Positions 1,548 to 23,299 of a stretch of 47,869 nucleotides of DNA are shown in pieces. The number at the start of each line of letters is the position of its first letter. Position 1 is the first letter of the stretch. Source of the stretch: Oscillospiraceae bacterium (GTDB taxonomy: Bacteria; Bacillota; Clostridia; Oscillospirales; Ruminococcaceae); NCBI GenBank assembly GCA_017462785.1, contig JAFTQJ010000072.1, forward strand, positions 1 through 47,869. Reading direction: 5' to 3'. The notes beneath the pieces are model-generated. The model worked only from the letters and a program-made list of their open reading frames with translations, was not told the DNA's origin and searched no databases. Position numbers and translations under genes: made by a program.

Positions 1548-1618
1548 TTGTAATTCATCCTTTCACGTTATGTGTGAATTCACTTCACCTCTGCAGCGGC
1601 TTTAAATTCACCGCCTCC

Positions 1619-1647
1619 ATTATACAACTTTTACAAATAAAAGTCAA
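1619..1647 (-). promoter_or_regulatory. Sigma-A-type promoter of the dockerin gene
   Basis: Minus-strand TTGACT (1647-1642), a 17-nt spacer and a perfect TATAAT (1624-1619). A run of 15 consecutive A residues (T on the plus strand, 1651-1665) lies immediately upstream of the -35 and could act as an UP-like A-tract. Confidence 0.8.
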
Positions 1648-1697
1648 CCGTTTTTTTTTTTTTTTGTAAAGGTGCACAAAATCATGAAAAATCGGAT

Positions 1698-2246
1698 TTA
1701 TAGGCGGGAAATCTCCCTCACCTTCCCCTCCGCCCAGCTGCCCACTCTTGTGAGGTAGAGCTGGTGGTATTCCGCAAAGGTCAGGCTGCATTCATAGCCG
1801 AGCAGCTCCATCTCCACGCCGAACAGGTCGGCATGGACATTCAGCTCCTGCATGCCGTTACGCAGGTAGAAGCGTTTCCTCCGCTGACGCTCGGGGAGAT
1901 CCTCTGCATCCGTAAACGTGGACTCGATCTCCAGAAAGAAACGCTTTCCCTCGTACATCCGCTGGAGCGTCCGCAGAGCCATGCTGCCGATGCCGCCCCC
2001 ACGCACCTTCGGGGATACTGCGAAATAATCCAGCAGGACAAGGTCATCCGCTTTCATAGTGATGGCAAGACCGGAAAATCTGCGTGGCTGCTCGATCACC
2101 CACACATCCGCATACCCCTGCCGGCACATGCGGAGGATCATGGCAAAGGGCTTTCGCTCACACGCCGGAAATGCCTGAAAATAGAGCCGCCATATCCTGC
2201 ACCAGTCACGCAGATGGACTGCCCTGCGAAGTCTGACTTTCTGCAT
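1698..2246 (-). CDS. GNAT-family N-acetyltransferase
   Basis: 182 aa. It has the GNAT core: a beta-strand followed by the acetyl-CoA loop (DYFAVSPKVRGGGIGSMALR, the R/Q-x-x-G-x-G/A region), and later RRKRFYLRNGM, the usual motif B before the last strand. It probably acetylates an amine on a small molecule or protein; the substrate is unknown. Its ATG overlaps the TAA of the phosphoglycerol-transferase-like gene by one base (TAATG), and its Shine-Dalgarno (AAAGGAGGAGG) lies inside that gene. The two are therefore translationally coupled, and a role in modifying the cell envelope is possible but unproven. Confidence 0.8.
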   Translation of the reverse strand: MQKVRLRRAVHLRDWCRIWRLYFQAFPACERKPFAMILRMCRQGYADVWVIEQPRRFSGLAITMKADDLVLLDYFAVSPKVRGGGIGSMALRTLQRMYEGKRFFLEIESTFTDAEDLPERQRRKRFYLRNGMQELNVHADLFGVEMELLGYECSLTFAEYHQLYLTRVGSWAEGKVREISRL

Positions 2247-3826: not shown

Positions 3827-3864
3827 AAATATTCCTCCCAAGCGGCGTAATGCCGCCAATTTCA

Positions 3865-4033
3865 CTGGAGCCTGTTCACATTAAAATCTCATACGCATCT
3901 TTTCGGCAAAATTTCACGCAGTCTGCGTTAAAAAGCCTTGCCATACATACAGTATGCCAGCGGCTTTTTGCCTTGCCTGCGTAAAATTGATGCTCGAAAA
4001 TCTGCATATTCATTTTATGTAAACAGGCTCTGG
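3865..4033. repeat. Imperfect ~169-bp palindrome (MITE-like) in a 5' leader
   Basis: The two ends are inverted copies (CTGGAGCCTGTTCACAT at the left, ATGTAAACAGGCTCTGG at the right). Pairing continues inwards through TTTCGG / CGAAAA and CACGCAG / TGCGTAA to a central hairpin at 3930-3969 (AAAAAGCC ... GGCTTTTT). It lies between a consensus promoter (4075-4103) and the GTG start at 3826, so the minus-strand mRNA leader would fold into one long hairpin. The centre resembles a bidirectional terminator. A miniature inverted-repeat element or a REP-like repeat are both possible. No clear target-site duplication was found. Confidence 0.6.
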
Positions 4034-4074
4034 AATGCCTTCTCTTTTTTGTCTATGAAGTATGTCAGGTATTT

Positions 4075-4103
4075 ATTATAGCGAAAAAGTCCGAAAATGT
4101 CAA
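4075..4103 (-). promoter_or_regulatory. Consensus sigma-A promoter upstream of the palindrome
   Basis: Minus-strand TTGACA (4103-4098), a 17-nt spacer and TATAAT (4080-4075). It would drive the phosphoglycerol-transferase/GNAT operon through the palindrome. Confidence 0.8.
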
Positions 4104-4131
4104 TCCTTGGGGGGTTGGGGGAATCTGGAAA

Positions 4132-4196
4132 ACCGCCGCCCTGTTTTTCGGGATTTCTCCGATATTCGGAGAAAAATCCGGATGCAGGACGGCGGT
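4132..4196 (-). terminator. Compound hairpin downstream of the KAP NTPase gene
   Basis: Outer arms ACCGCCGCCCTG / CAGGACGGCGGT enclose an inner stem GGATTTCTCCGA / TTCGGAGAAAAATCC. It lies 35 nt past the stop of the KAP gene and upstream of the next promoter. The T-run after it is weak (GGTTTTCC), so termination may be partial. Confidence 0.5.
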
Positions 4197-4230
4197 GGAT
4201 CGGGATTTATTAAATATTTTTTAAGGGGGA

Positions 4231-5940
4231 TCAGGTGATGATGCCGGCGTTGCGGAGGACTTTATAAATGGGGGCATCAGGAGAGGAGGTGTCTCGGATG
4301 TTCCAGATTTCGTAATGTGGACCATATGTTTTATAGATTAATCCATCCGGAAATAAAGGTCTTGTAACCTCGTTTCTATATTTTTTTACTCCGGCAAATA
4401 ACTCTTCATCGCTACATGGGCAATTATAAATAAATACAACCAATGGGGTCCCCCCTATTTCGGTTGGTTGATCATTACAAATCAACTTAATAGGCATATT
4501 ATTTCTCCGCAAATCATAACGAAATTTTCCGTCTTTTTCAATACTTAATGCTATTTCAGTTACAGATTCCTTCAATTTAGAACCAATAATCATGCTCGAT
4601 ATGTCTATAAACATTTGTGCATACGAAATATACTTTTCCAAATTAATGTTGGATGGCGTGGAATTTATTAATAAATAGGCAAACAAACAAATGCCTTCAA
4701 TGGAATTTTTTCTTCCGATATCAAAAACTTGATTCACAGCATCCAATATTTTTTTTGATGCTTCACTGCGTTCTCTACTTACATATTCCAAAAACCATTC
4801 CTTCAATCCGACATAATCTTCACCCATTTCTATCGCCTTTGCAAGCAGCTGCCAATATAATTCCTCCTGTTCCAGTTCTAGCATTTTTAGAGCAAATCGC
4901 TGCAAGTCCGTTTTTGAATCCTCCTCATTAGTCTTACTTTGTTGATCCATACACTTGTAAAGCAGACAGAAATTAACACATCTCTTGATGGTACGAGGAT
5001 TACGAACACCCGCATTGCATAAAAAATTCACATACTTTAATATAATTTGCCCATCATAATTTTTAAGCACATCTTCCATGTAAACTTGCAAGTCGTAATT
5101 ATGTACTGGTAATTTATATGGAATCTGAATAATTTTATCGAAGAAGCGGCTCTGTTTTACATCTCGCATGTTCTCACCATATTTTTGGCGGAGTCCTTCT
5201 TTTATAATGTTTGTATCAACAGCAATTAAAAATACACACCTTGGAATATCTAAAAAATTCTTGATTCCCTCCAGAAGCTCCACCGCACGGACTGGCTCAA
5301 GGCGATCAAGATCATCTATAAAAAAATAAAGACGCTGCTCCAGATCTTCTCCAAGATATGAATTAATAAGCTTTGTCAGATCTTCACGCATCCCGCTGAT
5401 AAGCACAGGATAGCTGACATAATCTCCATTTCTTTTCCTATCGAGTTCTTTAAATTGGTTTACGATATACTGGAAAACATTCGGAAAATCAACCGTTGTT
5501 GCTGCTTTGGCGGTTTCAGCAGTTAAATACAAAGCTGACATTGCCAGTACACGTCTTATTCGTTTGGCACTTCGTTTTATTTCTGCTCGCCCATTTTTTG
5601 ATTTAGACTTTAATATATCCGAAAGGCTTTCCTCTAATTTATGATATAACATCTCAATCAAATCCATCAACAGCCTGTCCTGTTCCCCGAGCACCGCAAA
5701 CTGCCATGTATCAAACCACAGAGTACAGCCGAAATGTTTCTGTTTCAATTCGTCCTCTAGCTGTTTCATAAGCGAAGTTTTTCCCGTCCCCCAGTCACCC
5801 TGCACTGCAATAGTCATAGGCGTACTGCATTCACTCATAAATTTCAAAAGACCTTGTCGATGCTTTTCCGTTCCCAATCTATCCTCTACCGCAGGCAAAT
5901 CAGAATTTCTGAACTTACTGCCATCCACGTTCATTTTCAT
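4231..5940 (-). CDS. KAP-family P-loop NTPase
   Basis: 569 aa. Walker A is GDWGTGKTS at residues 48-56. An aromatic FDTWQF follows at ~76-81, as in KAP NTPases. Walker B is YFFIDDLDRLEP at ~205-216, and a sensor-like FLIAVDTNII follows. KAP ATPases of bacteria are STAND-like, often membrane-associated, and several occur in antiphage loci. This copy shows only a weak hydrophobic stretch (~130-150) instead of clear transmembrane insertions. The C-terminal ~100 residues are unrecognised. The gene stands alone with its own promoter and is visibly more AT-rich than its neighbours, suggesting acquisition by transfer. An antiphage role is inference only. Confidence 0.8.
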   Translation of the reverse strand: MKMNVDGSKFRNSDLPAVEDRLGTEKHRQGLLKFMSECSTPMTIAVQGDWGTGKTSLMKQLEDELKQKHFGCTLWFDTWQFAVLGEQDRLLMDLIEMLYHKLEESLSDILKSKSKNGRAEIKRSAKRIRRVLAMSALYLTAETAKAATTVDFPNVFQYIVNQFKELDRKRNGDYVSYPVLISGMREDLTKLINSYLGEDLEQRLYFFIDDLDRLEPVRAVELLEGIKNFLDIPRCVFLIAVDTNIIKEGLRQKYGENMRDVKQSRFFDKIIQIPYKLPVHNYDLQVYMEDVLKNYDGQIILKYVNFLCNAGVRNPRTIKRCVNFCLLYKCMDQQSKTNEEDSKTDLQRFALKMLELEQEELYWQLLAKAIEMGEDYVGLKEWFLEYVSRERSEASKKILDAVNQVFDIGRKNSIEGICLFAYLLINSTPSNINLEKYISYAQMFIDISSMIIGSKLKESVTEIALSIEKDGKFRYDLRRNNMPIKLICNDQPTEIGGTPLVVFIYNCPCSDEELFAGVKKYRNEVTRPLFPDGLIYKTYGPHYEIWNIRDTSSPDAPIYKVLRNAGIIT

Positions 5941-11222: not shown

Positions 11223-11549
11223 GCTTTCAGCTCCTTTCGGAAGATACGTTTTGATCTTGTGCTTATGGGAGAATTTTCAGCAGTTTTAGAAAAGATATGC
11301 AGAAATTCCCCCACCCCAACCCCTCCCCTTGGGGAGGGGCTATCCTCAGAGGGTACTGCGTGCCCTCCGCCCGCCAAAGGGCTTCGCCCTTTGAACCCCT
11401 TTTTGTTTTATTATACCATGTTTTACAGCACATGTCTTTACCGGAAAATGTCACAAAATGCGGTGGTGTTTTTTGTGCAGGATTCTCCGTAATTTTATTA
11501 CATTAAAATGCACTAACTTTTATAACTGTCGAATAAGGAGATGATCTTT
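11223..11549. other. 327-bp divergent intergenic region with GC-rich hairpins
   Basis: This spacer separates the exporter operon from the radical SAM operon. It contains a CCCCTCCCC / GGGGAGGGG hairpin (about 11320-11339) and a second stem CAAAGGGC / GCCCTTTG (about 11384-11401) followed by CCCCTTTTTG. These are reminiscent of a degenerate repeat or plus-strand terminator. No open frame and no cobalamin or SAM riboswitch consensus was recognised. The last ~90 bp are AT-rich and should hold the radical SAM promoter. Confidence 0.5.
11498..11526 (+). promoter_or_regulatory. Tentative promoter of the radical SAM operon
   Basis: TTACAT, 17 nt, TATAAC just upstream of the AAGGAG Shine-Dalgarno. 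This is a poor match to sigma-A consensus; an alternative-sigma promoter is equally possible. Confidence 0.3.
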
Positions 11550-12851
11550 ATGAATCTTCTGCTGATCCATGCATGGAATGAGAAGGAAGTCGCTTACAGA
11601 GGAAAATTCTCTGCATTGCTCTCCTACCCATCCCTTACCCTTGCGGTCATATATTCTCTGATTCCGGAGGGAATGTTCGAGAAGATCGACGTGGTGGATG
11701 AGAATTCCCAGAAGGTGAAATATGACAAAGAGCACTATGATATTGTGATGGTTTCCTTTGAAACCTCTTCGAGCCTGTCCGCATACAAGCACTGCGATGC
11801 TTTCCGCAAGCGTGGTTCCTATGTGGTCTGCGGCGGCTACCATGCAACGGCTCTGCCCGACGAAGCTTTGCAGCACTGCGATACCGTGATCTGCGGCCCT
11901 GCGGAACGCTCTCTGCCGGCATTCCTCACGGATTACCAGAACGGCAGACCGAAAACGCTGTACCGTGATTTCAACGTCTGTCCGACGGATTTCACCGTTC
12001 CTGCCCGTGACAAGATGACAAAGCACAAAAAGCTCAATATCCCCGGCATCACCGCTGACCGTGGCTGCTTCAATGCCTGCAAATACTGTTCCATGCGGAC
12101 GATGTGGAAGAGCTGTCCCCGTCCGGTGGCAGATGTGGTCGCTGAGATCCGATCCCTGAAAACGAAGATGCTCATTTTCTACGACCCGAATTTCTTCGGC
12201 AAACGTGAATATGCCCTGGAACTGATGGCTGCTCTCAAACCGCTGAAAATTCTCTGGGTGTCCAATGCGACCGCCGATTTCGGTTATGACCATGAGCTGA
12301 TGCAGGCAGCCTACGACAGTGGATGCAGGGGTGTACTCATCGGTCTGGAATCCCTCAGTGCCCAATCGCTGACCGGCGTGGGGAAACGCTTCCGTGAAAC
12401 GGACAAATACAAGGAAGTGATCCGGAACATCCACAGCCACGGCATTGCAGTCAACGGCTGCTTTGTGCTGGGCTTTGACAGTGACACGGAGGAAGAACTT
12501 CTGGCTCTGCCGGAGCGAGTGGCGGATCTGGGGCTGGATCTCTGCCGCTTTGCGGTGCTTACGCCCTATCCGGGCACAAAGCTTTTCGAGGAATACGACC
12601 GTGACAACAGGATTCTGACAAGGAACTGGGGACGCTACACGCAGCACGAGGCGGTGTTCCGTCCTGCGAACCTTACGCCGGAACGCCTGAACGAGATCTA
12701 TCGTGATGTCTGGAAGAGAGCCTACAGCTGGAAGCATGTATTCCGGCGGACATTCTCCTCCCCGTGGCGGAAGAACGCCTACATCTTCATCCTGCTCGGT
12801 GCGAACATCGGCTTCAAATTCCTTGGCATTGACAAGAGGTACAGAAAATGA
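11550..12851 (+). CDS. B12-binding-type radical SAM enzyme 1
   Basis: 433 aa from ATG 11550, which sits 9 nt after AAGGAG; the in-frame ATG at 11541 abuts the Shine-Dalgarno. The N-terminal ~130 residues have the Rossmann-like fold of B12-binding domains (VVCGGYHATALPDEALQHCD). The radical SAM core follows with C173-x3-C177-x2-C180 (RGCFNACKYC), the 4Fe-4S/SAM site. Later VLIGLESLS and AVLTPYPGTKLFEEY match BchE/HpnP-like methylases and cyclases. The DxHxxG cobalamin motif is absent, so B12 use is uncertain. The C-terminal ~90 residues match the other four paralogues. It is the first gene of an eight-gene operon; its substrate is unknown. Confidence 0.85.
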   Translation: MNLLLIHAWNEKEVAYRGKFSALLSYPSLTLAVIYSLIPEGMFEKIDVVDENSQKVKYDKEHYDIVMVSFETSSSLSAYKHCDAFRKRGSYVVCGGYHATALPDEALQHCDTVICGPAERSLPAFLTDYQNGRPKTLYRDFNVCPTDFTVPARDKMTKHKKLNIPGITADRGCFNACKYCSMRTMWKSCPRPVADVVAEIRSLKTKMLIFYDPNFFGKREYALELMAALKPLKILWVSNATADFGYDHELMQAAYDSGCRGVLIGLESLSAQSLTGVGKRFRETDKYKEVIRNIHSHGIAVNGCFVLGFDSDTEEELLALPERVADLGLDLCRFAVLTPYPGTKLFEEYDRDNRILTRNWGRYTQHEAVFRPANLTPERLNEIYRDVWKRAYSWKHVFRRTFSSPWRKNAYIFILLGANIGFKFLGIDKRYRK

Positions 12852-14164
12852 AGATTGCATTGATCCGGCTCAACATGTTTGAGCACATCAGCTCGGATGC
12901 CATGAAGCCTCTGCTGTTCGGCATCATCAAAAGCCTCACGCCCGAGAAGCATGAAATTACATTTCTCGACGAACGCACCGATCCCCTCCCCGATACGATC
13001 GATGCGGATGTGATCGCATTTTCAGTCGAAACCTACACGGCAAAACGGGCATACATCCACGCCAAAAAATACCGCACGGACAGGAACATCATCGTCATGG
13101 GCGGATTCCATGCAAGCGTCATGCCCGATGAAATGCTGAAGTACGCCGATTCCGTCATCATCGGGGATGCGGAGGATACATGGGGCAGATTCCTTCAGGA
13201 CTGCGAAAACGGTACACCGCAGAAGAAGTACATCTCCAATGAAAATACGCCGCTTCGGGTGCTGCATGATGATCCGTCCATTTACAAGCATCGCTATTAT
13301 GGCATCGGAGTGTACCAGATCTCACGGGGCTGCAAATTCAACTGCGATTTCTGCTCCATCAAGACCATGTACAAATGCGTCAGAAGCAAAACGCCGGAGA
13401 TGGTTGCAGAAGAATTGTCGAAAGCAAGAGAAAAGATCATTTTCTTTGTGGATGATAATATTTTCACCGACCGCACCGCCGCCCTTGCACTCTTCCGGAA
13501 GATCGCACCGCTGAAAAAGAAATGGGCGTGTCAGATCAGCATGGATGCCGCAAGGGATGATGAGCTTTTATCTGAAATGAAAAAGGCGGGCTGTTTTCTG
13601 GTGCTGATGGGATTTGAGTCCCTCAATCCGGAAAGCCTTGGGGAGATGCACAAGGCGGCGAATGCGGCAGCGGACTATGAAGCGATCATCAGAAGGATCT
13701 ACAGGCACGGGCTGCTGATCTACGGGACATTTGTGCTCGGCTGTGACGGGGATGATCCGGATGTGTTCGGACGCACCTTTGATTTTGCGGTGAAAAATCA
13801 CATTGCCGTGACCAATTTCAACCCCCTCATCCCGATGCCGGGCACGGGGGTCTACCGCCGCATGGAAGCGGAGGGGCGGATGCTCTACAAAAAATGGTGG
13901 CTCTCCGATACCTACCGCTACGGTGAAACCGCCTATCGCCCGAAACGCATGACACCGGAGGAGCTGCGGGACGGATGCCTGAAAATGCGGACGGACTTCT
14001 ATTCCGTGGGCTGTATTTTCAAGCGGCTGTTCGGGAATCCGGTGCATCTCAAACCGATCAATGCCTTTGTCTTTCTGCTGGCAAATTTCATTTCCAGACG
14101 GGAAATTCACAAAAAACAAGGACAGCTTCTGGGAGGAATTCTGAATGAAACTGACACTGATTAA
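12848..14164 (+). CDS. B12-binding-type radical SAM enzyme 2
   Basis: 438 aa, start overlapping the previous stop by ATGA. The N-terminal Rossmann-type domain includes SVETYTAKRAYIHAKKYR and VMGGFHASVMPDEMLKYAD. Radical SAM cysteines are C162-x3-C166-x2-C169 (GCKFNCDFCS), followed by FFVDDNIFTDR and MGFESLNPESLGEMHKAAN. NPLIPMPGTGVYRRMEAEGR is the conserved late strand. The ending YKKWWLSDTYRYGETAYRPK is shared with enzymes 3 and 5. The family abstracts hydrogen from unactivated carbons for methylation, cyclisation or C-C coupling. Which reaction occurs here cannot be read from the sequence. Confidence 0.85.
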   Translation: MKIALIRLNMFEHISSDAMKPLLFGIIKSLTPEKHEITFLDERTDPLPDTIDADVIAFSVETYTAKRAYIHAKKYRTDRNIIVMGGFHASVMPDEMLKYADSVIIGDAEDTWGRFLQDCENGTPQKKYISNENTPLRVLHDDPSIYKHRYYGIGVYQISRGCKFNCDFCSIKTMYKCVRSKTPEMVAEELSKAREKIIFFVDDNIFTDRTAALALFRKIAPLKKKWACQISMDAARDDELLSEMKKAGCFLVLMGFESLNPESLGEMHKAANAAADYEAIIRRIYRHGLLIYGTFVLGCDGDDPDVFGRTFDFAVKNHIAVTNFNPLIPMPGTGVYRRMEAEGRMLYKKWWLSDTYRYGETAYRPKRMTPEELRDGCLKMRTDFYSVGCIFKRLFGNPVHLKPINAFVFLLANFISRREIHKKQGQLLGGILNETDTD

Positions 14165-15506
14165 ACCGAATATCGGCAGACGGGAGCACAGCCTGTATGT
14201 CGATGAAGCAAGAATGGAGCCGCTGCAGCTGGGCATTCTGGCGGCACTCACGCCGCAGGATGTGGAAGTAGTGCTCTATGACGACCGTATGGAGAAGATC
14301 CCCTACGACGAGCCGACCGACCTTGTGGCGATCACCGTGGAAACCTTTACCGCACGCAGAGCCTACGAGATCAGTGCGGAATTCCGCCGCAGAGGAGTGA
14401 AAACCGTGATGGGCGGCATGCATGCCATGCTGATTCCGGAGGAGGTGGCGGAGCACTGCGACTGCGTGATCGTCGGGGATGCGGAGCCTGTCTGGGAGCA
14501 GATGATCGAGGATCACCGGAACGGAAAACTCCAGCCGAGATATGATGCCGTACAGCCGCCGTATCCGCAGAAGAATGTCATCACAAGGCGTGATATTTTC
14601 GAGGGGAAGGGCTATCTGCCCATCACGCTCCTGCAATTCTCCAGAGGATGCAGCCACAAATGCAGCTTCTGTGCGTCCTCCGTCTATTTCAAGGCTCACC
14701 ATTACTGCCGTCCGGTGGAGGATGTCATCAAGGAAATCAAGGCACAGAAACGAAAGCTCCTCTTCTTTGTGGATGATAACATCGTGTGCAACCGTGAAAA
14801 GGCAAAAGAGCTGTTCCGTGCCCTCATTCCGCTGAAGATCCATTGGGTAAGTCAGGGCAGCATCGATATGCTGCTTGACAGGGAGCTGATGCAGCTGATG
14901 GTGAAAAGCGGCTGTTTAGGGCTTGTCATCGGCTTTGAGTCGATCTCGCCGGACTGCATTTCCGAGATGAACAAGGGCACGAACCGCAAGGGTTCGGGGG
15001 ATATGTACGCTTCCGAGATCGAACAGCTCCGCAGATGGGGCTTGCAGACATGGGCGGCATTCACGGTCGGGCATGACGGCGACACGGTGGAATCCATCCG
15101 TGCGACCTGTGATTTTGCCATCCGGAACAAATTCACCTTTGCGGCGTTCAACATCCTCATGCCCTACCCGAATACGCCCCTCTATGAAAAAATGGAACGG
15201 GAGGGGCGGCTGCTCTATGACGGCAAATGGTGGCTGCACGAGGACTACCGCTTCAATTATTGCAGCATCGTCCCGAAGAATATGACACCGGACGAGCTGA
15301 CGGAAATTTCCTTTGACTGCCGCCGCAGATTCAACAGCCCCATGTCCATTTTCAAACGTGCACTCGAACCACGCACCAACATGCGGACACCGTACCGCTT
15401 CGGAACCTACCTGATCTACAACCCCCTGTTCCGCAAGGAGGTATTCAAAAAGCAGGGCATGCGGTTCGGACTGAAAACAGGAAAGGAGGAGCAGGAACAA
15501 TGCTGA
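14145..15506 (+). CDS. B12-binding-type radical SAM enzyme 3
   Basis: 453 aa, overlapping enzyme 2 by 20 nt. The N-terminus (TLIKPNIGRREHSLYVDEAR) leads to the B12-binding-like domain with TVETFTARRAYEISAEFRRR and VMGGMHAMLIPEEVAEHCD. The 4Fe-4S cysteines are C169-x3-C173-x2-C176 (RGCSHKCSFC). FFVDDNIVCNREKAKELF and IGFESISPDCISEMNKGTN follow. It is closest by eye to enzyme 5 (shared IFEGKGYLP before the cluster motif and MNK after it). The pattern is typical of HpnP-like C-methylases, but the target is unknown. Confidence 0.85.
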   Translation: MKLTLIKPNIGRREHSLYVDEARMEPLQLGILAALTPQDVEVVLYDDRMEKIPYDEPTDLVAITVETFTARRAYEISAEFRRRGVKTVMGGMHAMLIPEEVAEHCDCVIVGDAEPVWEQMIEDHRNGKLQPRYDAVQPPYPQKNVITRRDIFEGKGYLPITLLQFSRGCSHKCSFCASSVYFKAHHYCRPVEDVIKEIKAQKRKLLFFVDDNIVCNREKAKELFRALIPLKIHWVSQGSIDMLLDRELMQLMVKSGCLGLVIGFESISPDCISEMNKGTNRKGSGDMYASEIEQLRRWGLQTWAAFTVGHDGDTVESIRATCDFAIRNKFTFAAFNILMPYPNTPLYEKMEREGRLLYDGKWWLHEDYRFNYCSIVPKNMTPDELTEISFDCRRRFNSPMSIFKRALEPRTNMRTPYRFGTYLIYNPLFRKEVFKKQGMRFGLKTGKEEQEQC

Positions 15507-16198
15507 AAGGAATCGTAAAACCCATCTCCGCCTACACGGAGGAGGAAATTCAGGCGATGTACCGCATTATGGCACAGTTCTATGACGATACGGAGGAAGC
15601 AGTATTCCGGCGTGATTTCTTTGACAAGGACTACTGCCTCGCTCTCTACCACGAAACGGAGGGCATTGTGGGATTCACCACGCAGAAGGTGCTTGCACTG
15701 GATGTGGACGGCAAAACCGTGCACGGTATGTTCTCCGGTGATACCATCATCCGCAAGGATCATTGGGGGGATCTGGAATTGTTCCGCACATGGGCAAAAT
15801 TCTGGTTTCCCTTCGCCGAGCAGTACGAGGAATTCTACTGGTTCCTCATCTGCAAGGGGTACAAGACCTACCGCATCATGCCGCTGTTCTGGTCGGAATT
15901 CTACCCGAATCACCGCAGTGCAACGCCGGAGTATGAGCAGAAGATCATGGATGCCTATGCCCATGCTCTCTATCCGGATGAATACAATCCAGAAACCGGC
16001 GTGATCGAATACAGGGGCATCAAGGACAAGCTGAAATCGGGCGTTGCCGATGTGGGGACAAAGGAGCTGCGGAACAAGGACATTGCCTATTTCTGTGAAC
16101 GGAATCCCAGACATGTAGAGGGCTGTGATCTGGTCTGTCTGGCAAAAATTGACCGGAAGCTCCTGAAAAAACGAGCCGCAGAGCTGGTGTTCCAATGA
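15500..16198 (+). CDS. GNAT-fold acyltransferase-like protein 1
   Basis: 232 aa, overlapping enzyme 3 by 7 nt and the GH3 gene by 4 nt (ATGA). The N-terminal half reads like an acyl-CoA N-acyltransferase fold: YTEEEIQAMYRIMAQFYD, then YCLALYHETEGIVGFTT and HGMFSGDTIIRKDHWGDLEL as the central strands. The acetyl-CoA loop is not a clean R-x-x-G-x-G, so the donor could be another acyl carrier. The C-terminal half (GIKDKLKSGVADVGTKELRN) is unrecognised. Its position directly before an adenylating amide synthetase suggests a step that acylates or prepares the amine partner. This is inference from context. Confidence 0.55.
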   Translation: MLKGIVKPISAYTEEEIQAMYRIMAQFYDDTEEAVFRRDFFDKDYCLALYHETEGIVGFTTQKVLALDVDGKTVHGMFSGDTIIRKDHWGDLELFRTWAKFWFPFAEQYEEFYWFLICKGYKTYRIMPLFWSEFYPNHRSATPEYEQKIMDAYAHALYPDEYNPETGVIEYRGIKDKLKSGVADVGTKELRNKDIAYFCERNPRHVEGCDLVCLAKIDRKLLKKRAAELVFQ

Positions 16199-17712
16199 GC
16201 CTGCGGTGCAGAATGCTCAACACCCTCTGCCGGACGCTGTACCGGAGGGAGTACCGCAAATTCACAGCCCCCTGTGATGTGACGCAGGTGCAATGGCAGT
16301 ACCTGCAAGCCCTCCTGCAAAGGAATGCAGACACGGTTTACGGCAGAAAATACGGCTTTTCCGGCATCCGCAGCTATGCGGATTTTGCGGAGAGGGTGCC
16401 GCTGTCGGTCTATGAGGATTATGAACCCTATATCGCAGAAATGGCGGCAGGGAGCGAAAAAGTGCTGACAGCGGAACGCATCCGGCTGTTTGAGCTGACA
16501 AGCGGCTCCTCGGGCGGAAAAAAGCTGATCCCCTACACCGATTCGCTCAAAGCGGAATTCCAGAGGGGCATCCGTCCGTGGCTCTGCGATATTTACACAA
16601 AAATGCCGGAGGTCTGCAAGGGCAAAAGCTACTGGTCGATCACGCCCGTGACCGCCGGAAAAAGCTTCACAGAATCCGGCATTCCGGTCGGATTTGAGGA
16701 GGATGCGGAGTACTTCGGAAAGCTCGAACAGCACATCATGCGGATGATCTTTGCCGTGGACGGATCCGTGAAATTTCCCGAAAACATAGAGGATTTCTAT
16801 TTCTCCACTGCAAAGCAGCTCCTCACCTGCGGAGAACTTACGCTGATCTCTGTCTGGAATCCGACATTCCTGAGCATCCTCAGCGATTTCATCCGTGACA
16901 ATGCGGAAAAACTCTCCTCCGCTTTGCCGGAGGGACAACGCACCGCATTCCTTGCCGCTGCAAGGGCGGAACGCTTCGACCGTATTTTCCCCGACCTGAA
17001 AATCATCAGCTGCTGGGCGGACGGACGGGCGGCGGAGCATGTGGAGGAAATACGCCGCCGGTTTCCGGAGGTGCACCTCCAGCCGAAAGGCTTGCTTGCG
17101 ACCGAATGCTTCATCTCGTTCCCCCTCTGCGGTGAGGTGGGCAGCCGCCTGAGCATCCATTCCCATTTCTTTGAATTCCGGCGGCTTCCGGACGGGAAGA
17201 TCGTAACCGCCGGAGAGCTGGAACGGGGGGAATATGAGGTCATTGTGACCACGGGCGGCGGCTTTTACCGCTACTGCATCGGGGATGTGATCGAGGTGCT
17301 GGAAACCTTTCCCGACCATCCCCCGAGGATCCGTTTTCTCCGGCGAAAGGGCGTTTTCTCCGACCTGTTCGGTGAGAAGCTCTCGGAGGAATTCGTGCAC
17401 AGCGTTCTTGTGACGCTTGGCACTGCACAGAGCTTCTGTCTGCTCGCACCGGAGGGGAAACGCTACTGTCTTTACACGACTGCCCCGCACATCACTGCCG
17501 AGGCACTCGATGCGGCATTGTGCGAAAGCTACCATTATGCCTACTGCCGGAGTCTTGGACAGCTGGAATGTGCTGCGGTCATGCAGGTTTCCGGCGATCC
17601 GGCACAGGATTATCTTCGCCGCCATACCGCTGAGGGAATGCGGCTCGGCGATATTAAACCAGCCGTTCTGAGCCGGAAAAGCGGATGGAATGAATGGTTC
17701 ACACTGAGATAG
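16195..17712 (+). CDS. GH3-family acyl-adenylating amide synthetase
   Basis: 505 aa, the usual length for bacterial GH3 proteins. It has the GH3 N-terminal signature LLQRNADTVYGRKYGFSGI, then FAERVPLSVYEDYEPYI. The ATP-binding TSGSSGGKK lies at 102-110. IISCWADGRAAEHVEEIRR and the LLATECFISFPL strand match the carboxylate pocket region. VTTGGGFYRYCIGDVIEV is the conserved late motif. Family members activate a carboxylic acid as the acyl-AMP and pass it to an amine, classically making amino-acid conjugates of plant hormones. In this operon it probably joins an acid altered by the radical SAM enzymes to an amine or amino acid. The substrates are unknown. Confidence 0.85.
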   Translation: MSLRCRMLNTLCRTLYRREYRKFTAPCDVTQVQWQYLQALLQRNADTVYGRKYGFSGIRSYADFAERVPLSVYEDYEPYIAEMAAGSEKVLTAERIRLFELTSGSSGGKKLIPYTDSLKAEFQRGIRPWLCDIYTKMPEVCKGKSYWSITPVTAGKSFTESGIPVGFEEDAEYFGKLEQHIMRMIFAVDGSVKFPENIEDFYFSTAKQLLTCGELTLISVWNPTFLSILSDFIRDNAEKLSSALPEGQRTAFLAAARAERFDRIFPDLKIISCWADGRAAEHVEEIRRRFPEVHLQPKGLLATECFISFPLCGEVGSRLSIHSHFFEFRRLPDGKIVTAGELERGEYEVIVTTGGGFYRYCIGDVIEVLETFPDHPPRIRFLRRKGVFSDLFGEKLSEEFVHSVLVTLGTAQSFCLLAPEGKRYCLYTTAPHITAEALDAALCESYHYAYCRSLGQLECAAVMQVSGDPAQDYLRRHTAEGMRLGDIKPAVLSRKSGWNEWFTLR

Positions 17713-17727
17713 AAAGGACTTGAAACT

Positions 17728-19062
17728 ATGCTGAAAATTGCACTGCTTGCTCCCGCCGGAGCGATGCACAGATATTCGGGGAGCTTCGGAAAATCGCTCC
17801 ACTACGCCCCCCTGACACTCACGACCCTTGCGGCACTGATTCCGGAGGACATTGATGCAGAGGTGAGGATCTATGACGAAACTGCCGAGAAAATTCCGCT
17901 GGACATTGATGCGGAGCTAATCGGCATTACCTGCATCACCGGTACTGCTCCGAGATGCTATGCCTATGCGGATTATTTCCGAAAAAAGGGAAAGACCGTA
18001 TTCATGGGCGGTGTGCATCCGTCCATGCTGCCCGATGAAGCGGCACAGCATGCGGATGTGGTATTCACGGGATTTTCGGAGCAGACCTTTCCGCAGTTCC
18101 TGCATGATTATGTCAAGGGCGAGCACCGCAGCCTTTACCGCCAGAATGCGGATTTCACCATCGAGGGCAGACCGTTCCCAAGGCGTGAACTGCTGAAAAA
18201 GAACCGCTACATCACGACCAAAACCGTTGAGGCGATCCGTGGCTGCTGCCACACATGCAGCTTCTGTGCCTATCCTGCGGCATTCGGAAAGCCCGTGCAC
18301 AAGCGTCCGGTGAAGGAGGTCGTGGCGGAGATCGAAGCTTTGCACACAAAGCATGTGCTCTTCCCCGATGTGAACCTCATCACGGACAGAGCCTATGCCA
18401 TTGAGCTTTTCAATGCCCTGATCCCGCTGAAAATCATCTGGCTGGGACTGGTGACATCCTCCGTCGGCATTGACGATGAGCTGATGACCGTGTTCCGCAA
18501 AAGCGGATGCAGGGGTCTGCTGATCGGCTTTGAATCCATCACGCAGGAATCCCAGAAGTACATCCACAAGGGCGTGAACCGTGTGGACAGCTATGTGGAG
18601 CTGATGGAAAAGCTGCATGACAACGGCATTCTGGTACAGGGATGCTTTGCATTCGGCGGTGACGAGGAGGATGAGAGCGTCTTTGACCGTACTGTCGAAA
18701 TGATCATCAAGGCGAAGATCGACCTGCCGAGGTACTCCATCCTGACACCCTTTCCGCAGACGGCGTACTATCGCCAGCTGGAGGAGGAAGGACGCATTAT
18801 TGAGAGAAACTGGGCAATGTACGATGTACAGCACTGTGTATTCCAGCCCAAGCTCATGACCAAGGAACAGCTCGAAGCCGGCACTGACCGTGCATGGCGT
18901 GCGACCTATTCCAACGCCAATATCATGAAGCGGCTTGCACCGTTCAATCATAGTCCGTGGCTGTCCATTCCGCTGAATCTGGGCTACAAGGGCTATGCGG
19001 ACAAGTGGCACAAATTCACCCGAGAGGTGATGTGCGACAATTCGGATATTCCGGTACTGTAA
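17728..19062 (+). CDS. B12-binding-type radical SAM enzyme 4
   Basis: 444 aa, starting 15 nt after the GH3 stop with AAAGGA upstream. The N-terminus keeps the Rossmann-type domain (CITGTAPRCYAYADYFRKKG, VFMGGVHPSMLPDEAAQHAD). The cluster motif is C173-x3-C177-x2-C180 within RGCCHTCSFC, giving an extra adjacent Cys174. LFPDVNLITDRAYAIELFNA and LLIGFESITQESQKYIHKG follow. The C-terminus (NWAMYDVQHCVFQPKLMT) resembles enzyme 1 more than enzymes 2, 3 and 5, so the five seem to form two subgroups. The reaction is not assignable from sequence. Confidence 0.85.
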   Translation: MLKIALLAPAGAMHRYSGSFGKSLHYAPLTLTTLAALIPEDIDAEVRIYDETAEKIPLDIDAELIGITCITGTAPRCYAYADYFRKKGKTVFMGGVHPSMLPDEAAQHADVVFTGFSEQTFPQFLHDYVKGEHRSLYRQNADFTIEGRPFPRRELLKKNRYITTKTVEAIRGCCHTCSFCAYPAAFGKPVHKRPVKEVVAEIEALHTKHVLFPDVNLITDRAYAIELFNALIPLKIIWLGLVTSSVGIDDELMTVFRKSGCRGLLIGFESITQESQKYIHKGVNRVDSYVELMEKLHDNGILVQGCFAFGGDEEDESVFDRTVEMIIKAKIDLPRYSILTPFPQTAYYRQLEEEGRIIERNWAMYDVQHCVFQPKLMTKEQLEAGTDRAWRATYSNANIMKRLAPFNHSPWLSIPLNLGYKGYADKWHKFTREVMCDNSDIPVL

Positions 19063-19072
19063 GGGGGCAGCT

Positions 19073-20404
19073 ATGAAAATTACCTTCATTCTGCCGGCGA
19101 TCGGCAAGAAACCCGGCAAAAAATACATCGGCACATGGAAAATGGAGCCGCTGACCATTGCGGTGCTCAAAGCTCTGACACCGCCGGAAATCGAAACGGA
19201 GCTGTTCGATGACCGACTGGAGCTGATCGACTACGACACCCGAACCGACCTTGTATGCATCACAGTGGAGAGCTACACGGCAAAGCGGAGCTACCGGATC
19301 GCACAGCGGTTCCGTGAGCGTGGGATTCCGGTCGTCATGGGCGGCTATCATGTGACGCTCTGCCCAGAGGAAGCGGCGGAATACTGCGACAGTGTGATCG
19401 CCGGCAATGCGGAATCCGTCTGGCTGGAGATGCTCACGGATGCAAAGGGCGGCACACTCAAACCCCTTTACAGGGGATCGGTCGGGGCATATGATGTACA
19501 GCCGGACAAGAGCATTTTCGAGGGCAAGGGGTACCTGCCCGTATCCCTCGTGGAAACCGGACGGGGATGCTGCCACAGCTGTGAATTCTGCTCGATCTCC
19601 CGTTTCTATTGCAGCAAATACTATTGCCGTGACCATGCACTGATCGTGGATGACATCCGGAAATCCAAGCACAGATATACATTTCTGGTGGATGACAACC
19701 TCGTTGCAGACCGCCGCAATGCAATGAAGCTGTTCGAGGACATCACGCCGCTGGGCATCAAATGGGCTGGACAGGGAACGCTTTCCATGGCAAAGGACGA
19801 AAACCTCCTGAAAACCATGAAGAAAAGCGGCTGCGAGATCATCCTCATCGGCTTTGAGAGCCTGAACAAGGAGAATTTGCAGCAGATGAACAAGTCCTTC
19901 AATTACGCCCTCGGTGAGCGTGACGAACTGGTGAAACGCATCCATGATGCAGGCATCGGCATCTATGCAACGTTCGTATTCGGCTATGACAATGATGATG
20001 AACGCACCATTCACGATGCATTGGAATTTGCAAAGAAGCATAATTTCTACACCGCCGCTTTCAACCACCTCCTGCCGTTTCCGAACACCGCCCTCTATGA
20101 CCGCCTGAAAGCGGACAACCGTCTGATCTATGATAAATGGTGGCTGGCGGATGGGTACAATTACGGAGAGCTTGCATTCCATCCGAAGCTTGTCACAGCG
20201 GAGAAAATGAGCCAGCTCTGCCGTGATGCACGCAAGGAATTCTCCGCCCCGAAAACGGTTCTCAGCCGTGGCTTTGCATCCCTCGGCAGAACCAGTCCTC
20301 TGCTCTGGGGGCTGTTCTGGGGCATGAACCTGCGTCTTGGGGAAGAGGTCGATCAGAAAATGCATGTACCGATCGGAGAGAATCTTGATGAACTTCCAAA
20401 ATAA
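19073..20404 (+). CDS. B12-binding-type radical SAM enzyme 5
   Basis: 443 aa, 10 nt after enzyme 4, with AAGGGGG upstream. It has TVESYTAKRSYRIAQRFR and VMGGYHVTLCPEEAAEYCD, strongly like hopanoid methylase-type sequences. The cluster cysteines are C166-x3-C170-x2-C173 (RGCCHSCEFC, extra Cys167). FLVDDNLVADRRNAMKLF, LIGFESLNKENLQQMNKSF and NHLLPFPNTALYDRLKADNR complete the core. It is nearest to enzyme 3 in the N-terminal half. The last gene of the operon starts 17 nt before its stop. Confidence 0.85.
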   Translation: MKITFILPAIGKKPGKKYIGTWKMEPLTIAVLKALTPPEIETELFDDRLELIDYDTRTDLVCITVESYTAKRSYRIAQRFRERGIPVVMGGYHVTLCPEEAAEYCDSVIAGNAESVWLEMLTDAKGGTLKPLYRGSVGAYDVQPDKSIFEGKGYLPVSLVETGRGCCHSCEFCSISRFYCSKYYCRDHALIVDDIRKSKHRYTFLVDDNLVADRRNAMKLFEDITPLGIKWAGQGTLSMAKDENLLKTMKKSGCEIILIGFESLNKENLQQMNKSFNYALGERDELVKRIHDAGIGIYATFVFGYDNDDERTIHDALEFAKKHNFYTAAFNHLLPFPNTALYDRLKADNRLIYDKWWLADGYNYGELAFHPKLVTAEKMSQLCRDARKEFSAPKTVLSRGFASLGRTSPLLWGLFWGMNLRLGEEVDQKMHVPIGENLDELPK

Positions 20405-21422
20405 CCGCTATACGCTGAAATTTGCGGATGCTTCGGACAATGCCGGCATTTGTGAGATCTTTGCGGCATCGGGTTTTTCCGGAGGGCTGAGCGTGCAGTA
20501 TCTGCGGGGGGATACGCCCTATGAATCCTTTTCCGCAGACGGGGACGAGAGCCGCATTCTGGTGATCCTCGACAACGAACAGCACCGCACGGCGGCGGTG
20601 GGCGGTGCGGTCGTGCGTGAGGAATATGTCAGCGGTGAGAGGGCGAAATGTGCCTATCTGACGGGGCTGAAGATCCATCCGGACTACCAGAAGCGGATCG
20701 GCTTCATTGCCAAGGCATATGCCTTTCTGCACGAGGGCATTGCGGACTGCCGCTATTGCTACACGACCATCCTTGACGACAATGCTCCGGCGATCGCCAT
20801 GCTCGAAAAGAAGCACCGGAACATGCCGGAATACCGTTATCTGGGGCATTACACGACCTACTGCTTCCACGGAGGGAAACGCCTCCTGAAGCTGGAACAG
20901 AACCGCATGGACGGCTTTGCCGATCTCATGCAAACGCATTTTGCAGAGCAGAGCCTTGTGCCGTGTGATCCGGATTATGCAGGCTTCGGGGAGAAAATAT
21001 TCTATTCCTACCGTGAAAACGGCGAACTGAAAGCCTGCTGTTTCATCGGGGATCAGACGGCGTTCAAGCAGTACAGAATGTGCTCCTACGGGGGGATCTA
21101 CCGGCTTTTGTCCCATCTGCCAACGCAGCTTTTCGGCTATCCGGCATTCCCGAAGCCCGACAGCATCATCCGGCATGGGGTGGTGTCGTACCTGTATGTG
21201 AAGGACAACGACCGGCGGCTCTGTGCGGATTTCCTGCGTTCTGCGGCGGCGGAAACGGATTTCTCCCTGCTTTTGTGGGGGGGATTTGAGAATGATCCGC
21301 TTTGCACAGCAATGGATCACATGAAAGCCGTCCGCTACGGAAGCAGGCTCTATTCGGTGCATTGGGATGCGGATTCGCCCGAAATTTCCGGCGTGATCGG
21401 GATGGAGGCGGCACTGCTGTAG
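20388..21422 (+). CDS. GNAT-fold acyltransferase-like protein 2
   Basis: 344 aa from ATG 20388, after GGAGAG and inside the end of enzyme 5; a longer in-frame start at 20337 lacks a Shine-Dalgarno. The first half is GNAT-like: YTLKFADASDNAGICEIFAA, then AYLTGLKIHPDYQKRIGFIA (acyl-CoA loop region) and CYTTILDDNAPAIAMLEKKH (motif B-like). The second half may be a degenerate second GNAT lobe (YLYVKDNDRRLCADFLRSAA). It is the last gene of the radical SAM operon, so it could install an acyl group on the final or an intermediate product. Substrate and acyl donor are unknown. Confidence 0.65.
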   Translation: MNFQNNRYTLKFADASDNAGICEIFAASGFSGGLSVQYLRGDTPYESFSADGDESRILVILDNEQHRTAAVGGAVVREEYVSGERAKCAYLTGLKIHPDYQKRIGFIAKAYAFLHEGIADCRYCYTTILDDNAPAIAMLEKKHRNMPEYRYLGHYTTYCFHGGKRLLKLEQNRMDGFADLMQTHFAEQSLVPCDPDYAGFGEKIFYSYRENGELKACCFIGDQTAFKQYRMCSYGGIYRLLSHLPTQLFGYPAFPKPDSIIRHGVVSYLYVKDNDRRLCADFLRSAAAETDFSLLLWGGFENDPLCTAMDHMKAVRYGSRLYSVHWDADSPEISGVIGMEAALL

Positions 21423-21462
21423 TGCTTGATACAGATTCTTCCAAATTTTTACGATCAATCCC

Positions 21463-21488
21463 GTTACCCACACCACCCATTTTCCGTC
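21463..21488 (+). promoter_or_regulatory. Possible ECF-type promoter upstream of the second sigma gene
   Basis: GTTACC, 16 nt, CGTC, in the 90-bp spacer before the ECF gene. The layout fits autoregulated Firmicute ECF promoters. No sigma-A match was seen here. Confidence 0.4.
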
Positions 21489-21512
21489 CATATGAGTGAG
21501 AGGAGGTGCATC

Positions 21513-22064
21513 ATGAACGATGAACAGATCATAGAGCTTTACTGGCAGAGGGACGAAACGGCGATCGAGGAAAGCCGGACGAAATACGGTTCCTACTGCA
21601 CCACCATCGCTCACAATATCCTCCGCCGGACGGAGGACGAGGAGGAGTGCGTGAATGACACATGGCTGCATGCATGGAATGCCATGCCGCCGCAGAAACC
21701 AAGCAGACTTGCGGTGTTTCTGGGACGGATCACACGCAACCTCGCCATTGACAGATACCGGATGCACAGAGCACAGAAATACGGCGGCGGTCAGACTGCA
21801 CTCTGTCTGGAAGAGCTGGGCGAATGCATCAGTGAAAGCAGACCCATTGAGGACAGGCTCGCTCTGCGTGAACTGCTGCACCTGTTTTTCAGCGGACTTC
21901 CCCCCAAAAAACGGGATATTTTTCTGCTCCGGTACTGGTACATGCTCCCCGTTGCCGAAATCGCACAGCGTTACGGCATGACGGAGGGTGCGGTCAAAAT
22001 GACCTTACAGCGAGTCCGGAACAAGCTGAAAGATTACCTCGAACAGGAAGGAGTGGGCATATGA
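21513..22064 (+). CDS. ECF-type RNA polymerase sigma factor (second)
   Basis: 183 aa from ATG 21513, which has AGGAGGTG 7 nt upstream. Region 2 is seen in RTEDEEECVNDTWLHAWNAM and RITRNLAIDRYRMHRAQKYG. Region 4 is LPPKKRDIFLLRYWYMLPVA followed by EIAQRYGMTEGAVKMTLQRV. It is followed by a membrane protein with a 4-nt overlap, the normal sigma/anti-sigma arrangement. It starts 90 nt after the radical SAM operon on the same strand. Whether it controls that operon is unknown. Confidence 0.9.
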   Translation: MNDEQIIELYWQRDETAIEESRTKYGSYCTTIAHNILRRTEDEEECVNDTWLHAWNAMPPQKPSRLAVFLGRITRNLAIDRYRMHRAQKYGGGQTALCLEELGECISESRPIEDRLALRELLHLFFSGLPPKKRDIFLLRYWYMLPVAEIAQRYGMTEGAVKMTLQRVRNKLKDYLEQEGVGI

Positions 22065-23299
22065 CGAACAAGGAAATACTGCTGGAAGAGATCGGGGAAA
22101 CCAAGGAAGAGCTGATTCCGGAGCTTTCCCGCACGAAAAAAAGAAAGCCCCTGCGATGGGCTTTGACCTGCGGTGCATGTGCGGCGGCGGTGCTTGTGGG
22201 TGTAATGCTCCTGCCGTCCGGAAACACGTCCATCTACGGTGCTCTGCCCCACACCGCCGAACGGGAGATCGCCGCAGGAACACAGCCGCTGCGTTCCGAG
22301 ATCGTACCCGGCAGCATGGGCTTTGAGGGGATGATGGCGTATGACATTTCTGAGCTGGACAATGCCAACCCGTGGAATGCAGAAATGGAGATTGACGCAC
22401 TGCCGGTGTACCGGAATCTGTGCTGTATTCCGGAATATCCCTCCCTCAGCGGCATGGCATACCTGCCGCAGGAACGGATGGAGGAGATCCTGCAAAATAC
22501 AGCGGATGCACTGAACGTGATGATCACCTCCACCAAACTGACCCTCATCAAGGATATGGTCGGCGGTGACTATCCGCAGGAGCTGATGAAGGGCGTATGG
22601 AGCATTGAGGCGGTTTGCAGCGGCGGTATCAGCATTTCCGTCTATGGGGACGGTGAGATCTGCCTGAGATTCCGGAACAAAAAGCTTCCCTCCGGTTACA
22701 GCTTCACCTATGATGACACGACCGCAGAGGAAGCGGATGAAGTACTTTCCTATCTGACGGAGGAATATGCTGCATTTTTGCAGATGGAGGATCCTGTCTG
22801 CTGGTCGTATGCGGACAGAAGCTATGCAGGCGGGGAAAACCGTTCCTACTATGCCTATGACCGGACGGGGGATCCGGTGCAGGATATTCTGCACTACAAT
22901 CTTGCCAGTGTACAGTTTGCACCGGATGATTTCGGCAGTCTGATGCTCATCCGGCGGAACAATGCGTTCTGTGCAGCGGAATATCTGGGGGATTATCCCA
23001 TCATTACGGCAGAAACAGCACAGCAGGCACTGCTCTCCGGCAGCTATTACACCACGGTGCCGGAGGAATACCTCAAAGGCGGTGTGATCGCAGAAGAGGA
23101 CATTGCCAGAACCGAGCTGATCTACCGGAACCGGAGCAATGAAGAGTTTTTCCAGCCGTACTATCGTTTCTATGTAGAGCTGGATACCTCGCATTTTGTG
23201 GATGTTCCCGAGGGTTTGAAGGATTTTGGGCTGTTCTATGTTCCGGCGGTAAGTCCGGAGTATCTCAGTGATTTTGAGATGGAACTGACGTTTAATTAA
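22061..23299 (+). CDS. Membrane anti-sigma-like protein
   Basis: 412 aa, overlapping the sigma gene by ATGA. A short basic cytoplasmic N-terminus (LSRTKKRKPL) is followed by one transmembrane helix (~WALTCGACAAAVLVGVMLL) and a ~350-residue extracytoplasmic domain without recognised motifs. The predicted role is restraint of the ECF factor and extracytoplasmic sensing, based on position and topology. No zinc-binding anti-sigma motif is present. Confidence 0.6.
   Translation: MTNKEILLEEIGETKEELIPELSRTKKRKPLRWALTCGACAAAVLVGVMLLPSGNTSIYGALPHTAEREIAAGTQPLRSEIVPGSMGFEGMMAYDISELDNANPWNAEMEIDALPVYRNLCCIPEYPSLSGMAYLPQERMEEILQNTADALNVMITSTKLTLIKDMVGGDYPQELMKGVWSIEAVCSGGISISVYGDGEICLRFRNKKLPSGYSFTYDDTTAEEADEVLSYLTEEYAAFLQMEDPVCWSYADRSYAGGENRSYYAYDRTGDPVQDILHYNLASVQFAPDDFGSLMLIRRNNAFCAAEYLGDYPIITAETAQQALLSGSYYTTVPEEYLKGGVIAEEDIARTELIYRNRSNEEFFQPYYRFYVELDTSHFVDVPEGLKDFGLFYVPAVSPEYLSDFEMELTFN

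Follow-up and report, generated by a model that had tools for sequence, protein, structure and literature searches.

A conserved eight-gene cassette of B12-type radical SAM, GH3 and GNAT genes in Bacillota and on a Citrobacter plasmid: a candidate pathway for a small acyl amide

Here we report that five genes for B12-type radical S-adenosylmethionine (SAM) enzymes (rS1 to rS5), one GH3 gene and two genes for GNAT-type proteins (GN1 and GN2), found together in a 47,869-nucleotide stretch of DNA from an Oscillospiraceae bacterium (assembly GCA_017462785.1, contig JAFTQJ010000072.1, forward strand; the whole stretch is hereafter the window), are one inherited unit. We see about an even chance that this cassette is a self-contained, portable and modular biosynthetic pathway, the putative product of which would be a small acyl amide. 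The enzyme families are known, their assembly is not: searches of the open-access literature, with subscription papers mostly outside their scope, gave no cluster of this make-up, in agreement with an earlier note on this DNA that knew of no characterised one. We class the cassette with GH3-dependent acyl-amide biosynthesis, as a probable form of it, and not as a category of its own. If the proposal is true, a pathway not yet described, with five paralogous radical SAM enzymes acting on one molecule, is present in scattered gut bacteria.

The eight genes lie on the plus strand as rS1 (11541-12851, 436 amino acids), rS2 (12848-14164, 438 amino acids), rS3 (14145-15506, 453 amino acids), GN1 (15500-16198, 232 amino acids, from a family without a Pfam match), GH3 (16195-17712, 505 amino acids, by family an acyl-acid amido synthetase), rS4 (17728-19062, 444 amino acids), rS5 (19073-20404, 443 amino acids) and GN2 (20388-21422, 344 amino acids, with an extra C-terminal half), which confirms the content and order given in the earlier note. 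GN2 is taken to start at the ATG at 20388, from which its relatives align, while the listed open reading frame (ORF) begins at 20337. From rS1 to rS4 the genes are joined, in turn, by overlaps of 4, 20, 7 and 4 nucleotides and then by a gap of 15; rS4 and rS5 are 10 nucleotides apart, and rS5 and GN2 overlap by 17. Overlaps, which the note had put at 4 to 20 nucleotides for most genes, are present at five of the seven junctions. Also as it had stated, none of the eight genes encodes a precursor peptide, a polyketide synthase (PKS), a non-ribosomal peptide synthetase (NRPS) or a transporter; the absence of transporters holds inside the window cassette but not among its relatives, which have genes for a permease, an adaptor, a major facilitator superfamily (MFS) pump and an outer-membrane factor.

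With the window GH3 as query, the GTDB species genomes yielded 25 loci, 24 of which contain the cassette, the exception (L026) showing 28% identity. The gene order is unbroken in 23 of these 24 as far as the contigs extend (the exception, L015, is described below); GH3 and rS4 are present in all 24 and GN1 in 23, and the other genes are missing mainly at contig ends. The earlier note had proposed one pathway, with scattered genes in relatives as the finding that would count against it and synteny across the Firmicutes as the finding that would support it. The set is there in 24 of the 25 GH3 neighbourhoods, with its order kept in 23, but the pathway is not confined to that phylum. Identity to the window proteins is highest for rS4 (82-93%), rS3 (84-92%) and rS5 (77-90%), which marks these three radical enzymes as the most constrained parts, with rS4 among the most conserved members; it is 70-78% for rS2, 62-79% for rS1, 59-75% for GN1, 53-71% for GH3 and 49-75% for GN2. 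rS1 is a dispensable member, missing from several otherwise complete sets: L021 and L022 have none, and whole-genome searches there gave just 35-36% matches, at the places of other members. rS5 in L005 and rS3 in L017 are split ORFs, and insertions interrupt the cassettes of L013 (a GNAT gene), L023 (108 amino acids) and L025 (an EAL/GGDEF protein), as well as those of L083 and L086. Four further loci (L084, L085, L087 and L088) seem to duplicate the contigs of L015, L023, L010 and L016 and were not recounted. Three genomes of the window's genus carry an ORF of about 340-360 amino acids directly before rS5 (L083, 6080-7105, minus strand; L086, 5630-6706, minus strand; L106, 4503-5534, plus strand); it has no Pfam match and, by eye, a hydrophobic N-terminus.

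The same set also exists in another phylum. When plasmids were searched by tblastn with rS4, nine records were obtained, the best being a mobilizable IncFIB/IncFII plasmid of 159 kb from Citrobacter portucalensis (gull cloaca; one record), with five matching places. One strand of its cluster reads GN1-GH3-rS4-rS5-GN2-rS2-rS3-PAP2-hypothetical, and the other carries an rS1-type gene (assigned from trees) and a fatty acid desaturase gene. All eight kinds are therefore held by this plasmid, reshuffled, and its rS3 is 58% identical to that of the window. As the Citrobacter record demonstrates, a plasmid can carry the set. No near match to the Citrobacter set came from the collection of E. coli genomes. 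Phage cargo was considered and rejected: rS4 had no match in phage records, and a scan of viral contigs with the Citrobacter rS3 also gave none.

The five radical SAM enzymes belong to separate, old subfamilies, and their cluster motif is intact. All of them match PF04055 (radical SAM) above the cut-off and PF02310 (B12-binding) at E-values from 1.5e-6 to 2.2e-8, the latter exceeding its curated cut-off solely in rS2 and rS4. The CX3CX2C motif is kept in every complete copy, window included (16/16 for rS1, 22/22 for rS2, 22/22 for rS3, 24/24 for rS4 and 22/22 for rS5), and a GGxH loop is found in every complete cassette copy counted. Trees of 59 and 56 rows were built from the window, four of the 24 cassettes and the divergent sets; the root of the 56-row tree is weak because its branches are long and its outgroup is a single row. 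In this tree rS1, rS2, rS3 and rS5 form clades that include the Citrobacter copy (bootstrap/Shimodaira-Hasegawa-like approximate likelihood ratio test (SH-aLRT) 100/100, 100/99, 100/100 and 98/93, respectively), and the rS4 copies of Citrobacter and L065 fall inside an rS1+rS4 group with unresolved placement. Thus the paralogues had already separated before these clusters diverged. Two deep groupings, rS1+rS4 and rS2+rS3+rS5, do record old duplications among them, as would be expected if the cassette were not one pathway but a tandem amplification of paralogous radical SAM genes with unrelated neighbours. This explanation is strongly disfavoured, and is the one to which we give least credence: the order is conserved in 23 of 24 cassettes, sets that have been split keep their parts, and the same eight kinds recur reshuffled in another phylum. 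A row of four distant B12-type radical SAM genes in Acetoanaerobium noterae (L076, 4550-10559), with a methyltransferase-like ORF (by eye) among them, is a different multi-radical-SAM cluster.

Two genomes illustrate how the sets split. In G1184 (locus L015) other genes follow rS4, rS5-GN2 lies elsewhere with other neighbours, and a third contig carries rS1, rS2 and the beginning of rS3, a separation that may be just a contig break; in G743, rS2-rS3-GN1-GH3-rS4 and rS5-GN2 occupy different contigs, and their neighbours differ too. The parts are retained (all eight kinds in G1184 and seven in G743, where rS1 was not sought), and in both genomes rS5-GN2 has moved as a pair. Wider scans, all counting the genome of origin, matched the GN2 profile in 4 of 391 genomes of the class (E up to 1e-8), rS4 in 5 of 394 genomes of the order (E up to 1e-150) and the GH3 family in 13 of 398 genomes of the phylum. 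GH3 stands beside GN1 in five of these 13 (G000, G875, G995, G1069 and G919), and the short loci around GH3 in the other eight contain no GN1.

Shorter versions of the cassette are nested within the longer ones. The smallest, permease-rS4-rS5-GN2, occurs in four loci (L031-L034), two of them with an rS1-type gene between; the permease precedes the core in all four, matching PF03222 (Trp_Tyr_perm) with 41.2 bits in L031 and recognised by plain likeness in the other three. Five-gene sets read GN1-GH3-rS4-rS5-GN2 in L039 and L066 and rS4-rS5-GN2-GN1-GH3 in L065; a seven-gene set, rS2-rS3-GN1-GH3-rS4-rS5-GN2, is present in L040, and L067 agrees with it as far as its contig goes. Another genome has rS1-GN1-GH3-rS4 and rS5-GN2 on separate contigs (L068 and L107). 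Such nested natural versions (core, five-, seven- and eight-gene) would allow each radical step to be assigned block by block. Three genomes were searched in the taxonomic order and class of L065, and the two others had no match. Upstream of the L065 set lie KDD, KCE and KAL, genes of lysine fermentation, and an amino acid permease gene (1067-5105), ending about 290 bases before rS4. Before the rS1-GN1-GH3-rS4 genes of L068 is a radical SAM protein (269-1540) whose nearest models, all with scores under the cut-off, are NirJ2 and others of SPASM type.

The GH3 protein matches PF03321 (143.9 bits, E 8.4e-42) and PF23571 (48.7 bits), the cut-off being 23.6 for both, and its C-terminal domain reaches 15.2 bits with PF23572, below cut-off. 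T102, S103, G104, S105 and K110, T303, E304 and C305, and the segment Y358-D364 are invariant in all 23 aligned copies, and distant copies show recognisable nucleotide-binding motifs with substitutions. Because the three nucleotide motifs are kept, carboxylate activation and amide formation is the reaction expected by family and motifs. The same motifs align with those of plant GH3s (PDB 7dk8, 4epm and 4epl; profile match E 4.3e-23 to 2.4e-20), but these are very distant, and their substrates (auxin, jasmonate, benzoates) are not expected here. OlsH, the bacterial GH3 of the OlsH/OlsI ornithine lipid pathway of Singulisphaera acidiphila, makes N-acyl ornithine (PMC12493201). OlsH forms this N-acyl amino acid with ATP, and its three nucleotide-binding motifs correspond to those of the window GH3. 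However, its partners are an alpha/beta-hydrolase and an N-methyltransferase in place of GNATs and radical SAM enzymes, and the word 'radical' is absent from the main text of PMC12493201. The present cassette, if the proposal is true, would add another bacterial GH3 role beside ornithine lipids. In a tree of GH3 proteins from the window, five of the 24 cassettes, the divergent sets and other GH3s, all 16 GN1-associated rows group in a single clade (SH-aLRT 100) that excludes the remaining 15. Another setting for a GH3 gene is seen on a Streptomyces sp. SGAir0924 plasmid (L111, 7767-9437), where it lies 3' of a PKS gene, with P450 and aminotransferase genes between.

Both smaller proteins bear out the GNAT label that they had received in the earlier note, GN2 by Pfam and GN1 by predicted fold. 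GN2 matches Acetyltransf_1 with 21.1 bits, just above the cut-off of 20.7; in its family 6 of 14 members match a GNAT domain at E up to 0.1 (best E 5.3e-8), and one of the 14 matches an amino-acid N-acyltransferase domain (E 5.1e-4). For GN1, Pfam gave nothing, its sequence matches in the PDB include no GNAT, and GNAT matches among 13 relatives were single and weak. The AlphaFold2 model of GN1 (mean predicted local distance difference test 93.1, predicted template modelling (TM) score 0.89) predicts a GNAT fold: the best Foldseek match is AAC(2')-Ia (E 6.0e-6, TM-score over the query 0.43), and nearly all of the 50 matches listed are GNAT acetyltransferases, with TM-scores over the query of about 0.4.

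GN1, GN2 and GH3 also occur as a trio. A tblastn search of plasmids with the Citrobacter GH3 returned five records. A Burkholderia arboris stretch matches GN1, GN2, GH3 and the desaturase, and two Acinetobacter baumannii records hold genes for an amidase, an adaptor, an MFS pump, GN1, GH3, an outer-membrane factor and GN2; in one of these (L112, 1988-11783) the trio follows the amidase gene and is interleaved with those for the adaptor, the pump and the outer-membrane factor. One A. baumannii record has ORFs that look transposase-like by eye, and its adaptor ORF is shortened; the Pfam run was made on the other. Profiles of the window families gave, as small-database E-values from a small ORF set, 4.8e-64 in Burkholderia and 4.7e-55 in Acinetobacter for GN1, 4.4e-29 and 2.8e-36 for GN2, and 1.5e-90 and 5.3e-68 for GH3; rS4 had no match at E up to 1e-30 in the Burkholderia record or the two Acinetobacter records. 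GN1 adjoins GH3 directly in the Bacillota, Citrobacter and Acinetobacter sets seen and shares its stretch with GH3, not adjacent, in Burkholderia. GN1 and GN2 go with the GN1-associated GH3 clade. Eight Azospirillum records contain GN1-like proteins, with no GH3 recognised within about 8 kb in the three records fetched.

Judged from gene content and protein families, the proposed pathway would run as follows. An amino acid or a close derivative would be N-acylated by GN2 and/or GN1; the core pair rS4 and rS5, then rS2 and rS3 and, in the longest version, rS1 would each carry out one 5'-deoxyadenosyl-radical reaction on the carbon skeleton, possibly ring closure, carbon-carbon bond formation, oxidation or methylation; and GH3 would adenylate a carboxylate with ATP and couple it to an amine to form the amide. 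An amino acid is suggested by the permease that precedes the core, by the lysine-fermentation genes of L065 and by the one GN2 relative with an amino-acid N-acyltransferase match, and a lipid part by the desaturase and PAP2 genes. We therefore prefer, with moderate confidence, an N-acyl amino-acid amide (a lipo-amino acid), released or membrane-associated, as the probable product class, because it fits both sets of hints. More sweepingly, the GN1-GH3-GN2 trio would make amides with no NRPS, PKS or ribosomal precursor, on a skeleton rebuilt in nested steps by up to five B12-type radical SAM enzymes; the class of natural product would be new, and the pathway so old that Bacillota and Enterobacteriaceae share it and so mobile that an IncF-type plasmid carries it. 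We put this somewhat short of an even chance.

HpnJ is the best NCBIfam model for four of the five radical enzymes and the second for rS3, at 79-94 bits against a cut-off of 577.6; the best for rS3 is the PhpK-type P-methyltransferase TIGR04479, at 96.1 bits, far under its cut-off of 600. HpnJ (TIGR03471), BchE (TIGR02026) and the ladderane-type enzyme (TIGR04072) are of the same two-domain type as the window proteins, but the latter stand in other gene contexts, and all five score far below the cut-offs of these equivalog models. In a preprint, the non-methylases that form or rearrange rings include HpnJ, BchE and ladderane synthase (PMC13142503), and what cobalamin does in enzymes of this kind is often unclear (PMC13331322); the pathway, if real, would offer a test of cobalamin's part in radical SAM enzymes resembling the non-methylating HpnJ and BchE. 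A methylation cassette was not adopted as the reading, the best model of four of the enzymes being a non-methylase and all scores being sub-threshold. These neighbours, which include ladderane-type and hopanoid models, would suit a structural membrane lipid, whose alkyl chains the radical enzymes would join or cyclise, as proposed for ladderane and tetraether lipids, and whose amide headgroup GH3 and the GNATs would build; the desaturase and PAP2 genes of Citrobacter and the desaturase gene of the Burkholderia stretch fit it as well. We nevertheless consider it unlikely: the ladderane and hopanoid scores are all far below cut-off, no flanking family is common to the Bacillota cassettes, the Acinetobacter trio sits with an exporter, and occurrence in 5 of 38 genomes of the genus is patchy, unlike that of a structural lipid.

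At the other extreme the product may be a diffusible amino-acid-derived metabolite, a signal or an antibiotic, with no long acyl chain and with GNATs that merely acetylate. The nearest folds of GN1 are indeed acetyltransferases, a Trp/Tyr-type permease precedes the core, KDD, KCE, KAL and an amino acid permease lie upstream in L065, and an exporter and an amidase surround the Acinetobacter trio. Set against this are the desaturase and PAP2 neighbours in the proteobacterial sets and the lack of a transporter conserved beside the Bacillota cassettes, and we regard such a metabolite as about as improbable as the structural lipid.

B12-type radical SAM enzymes occur in clusters for ribosomally synthesised and post-translationally modified peptides (RiPPs), and some of the weak NCBIfam matches are to RiPP models such as ApyD, so a precursor peptide that had escaped notice had to be weighed. 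Gaps inside the cassette are of at most 15 nucleotides, and the 672 short ORFs (20-120 amino acids) within 1.5 kb, from 17 upstream and 18 downstream flanks, include no shared family, precursors elsewhere in the genome not having been sought. A RiPP with a neighbouring precursor is rejected on this test, and a RiPP-type pathway in general is very improbable. Likewise, among 169 flanking ORFs from 26 loci (the window, L002-L025 and L083, several of which have hardly any flank or none) no family is common to more than three loci, and those shared are, by eye, sensor kinases, response regulators and ABC ATPases. In neither test did a conserved transporter, regulator or precursor peptide appear beside the Bacillota version.

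Several observations weigh against an N-acyl amino-acid amide made by one integrated pathway: (i) the B12 domain is below its curated cut-off in three of the five window radical SAM proteins. (ii) The GN1 and GN2 profiles are alike weakly (hhalign probability 16%). (iii) GH3 scores 53.3 bits with the NCBIfam OlsH equivalog and does not reach its cut-off of 620. (iv) The L031-L034 stretches contain no GN1 or GH3, whole genomes not having been searched for them, and the GN1-GH3-GN2 trio occurs without radical SAM genes in Burkholderia and Acinetobacter; with a core lacking GN1-GH3 in one place and a trio lacking radical enzymes in another, the two halves may yield different products in different hosts. 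(v) What points to an amino acid comes from these four related loci, in whose fetched stretches GN1-GH3 is lacking, and from a single further genome. (vi) The lipid hints come from two proteobacterial loci.

The carriers are scattered bacteria, many from animal guts. Of 38 genomes of the window's genus, 5 carry rS4, as do 3 of the 297 family genomes sampled (own genome included in both), a patchiness to be read with the fact that many of the searched genomes are incomplete. The window rS4 shares 90% identity with a copy from a different genus of its family and 80-86% with the four copies from its own genus. Recent transfer into the genus, suggested by the patchiness and these identities, was rejected as a conclusion, a tree test not having rejected a single genus clade (p-AU, approximately unbiased test, 0.742). 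Nor does the cassette have an odd base composition; its G+C content resembles that of its surroundings, which is 52-55%.

Directly after the window cassette, on the plus strand (21426-23299), are genes for an extracytoplasmic function (ECF) sigma factor and a 412-amino-acid protein without a Pfam match. Cassette-specific regulation was considered and rejected, as this pair has no counterpart next to the other cassettes and an Rfam search of the window gave nothing at gathering score. Further away, on the minus strand, the window contains GajB-like and GajA-like genes of a Gabija anti-phage pair (35816-40005; PADLOC 711 and 737 bits), where G+C is about 34%, well under the value around the cassette. 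Also on the minus strand, in a stretch of 38% G+C, is a gene for a KAP-family P-loop nucleoside triphosphatase (4231-5940) with partial matches to the defence models PDC-S20, PifA and QatA.

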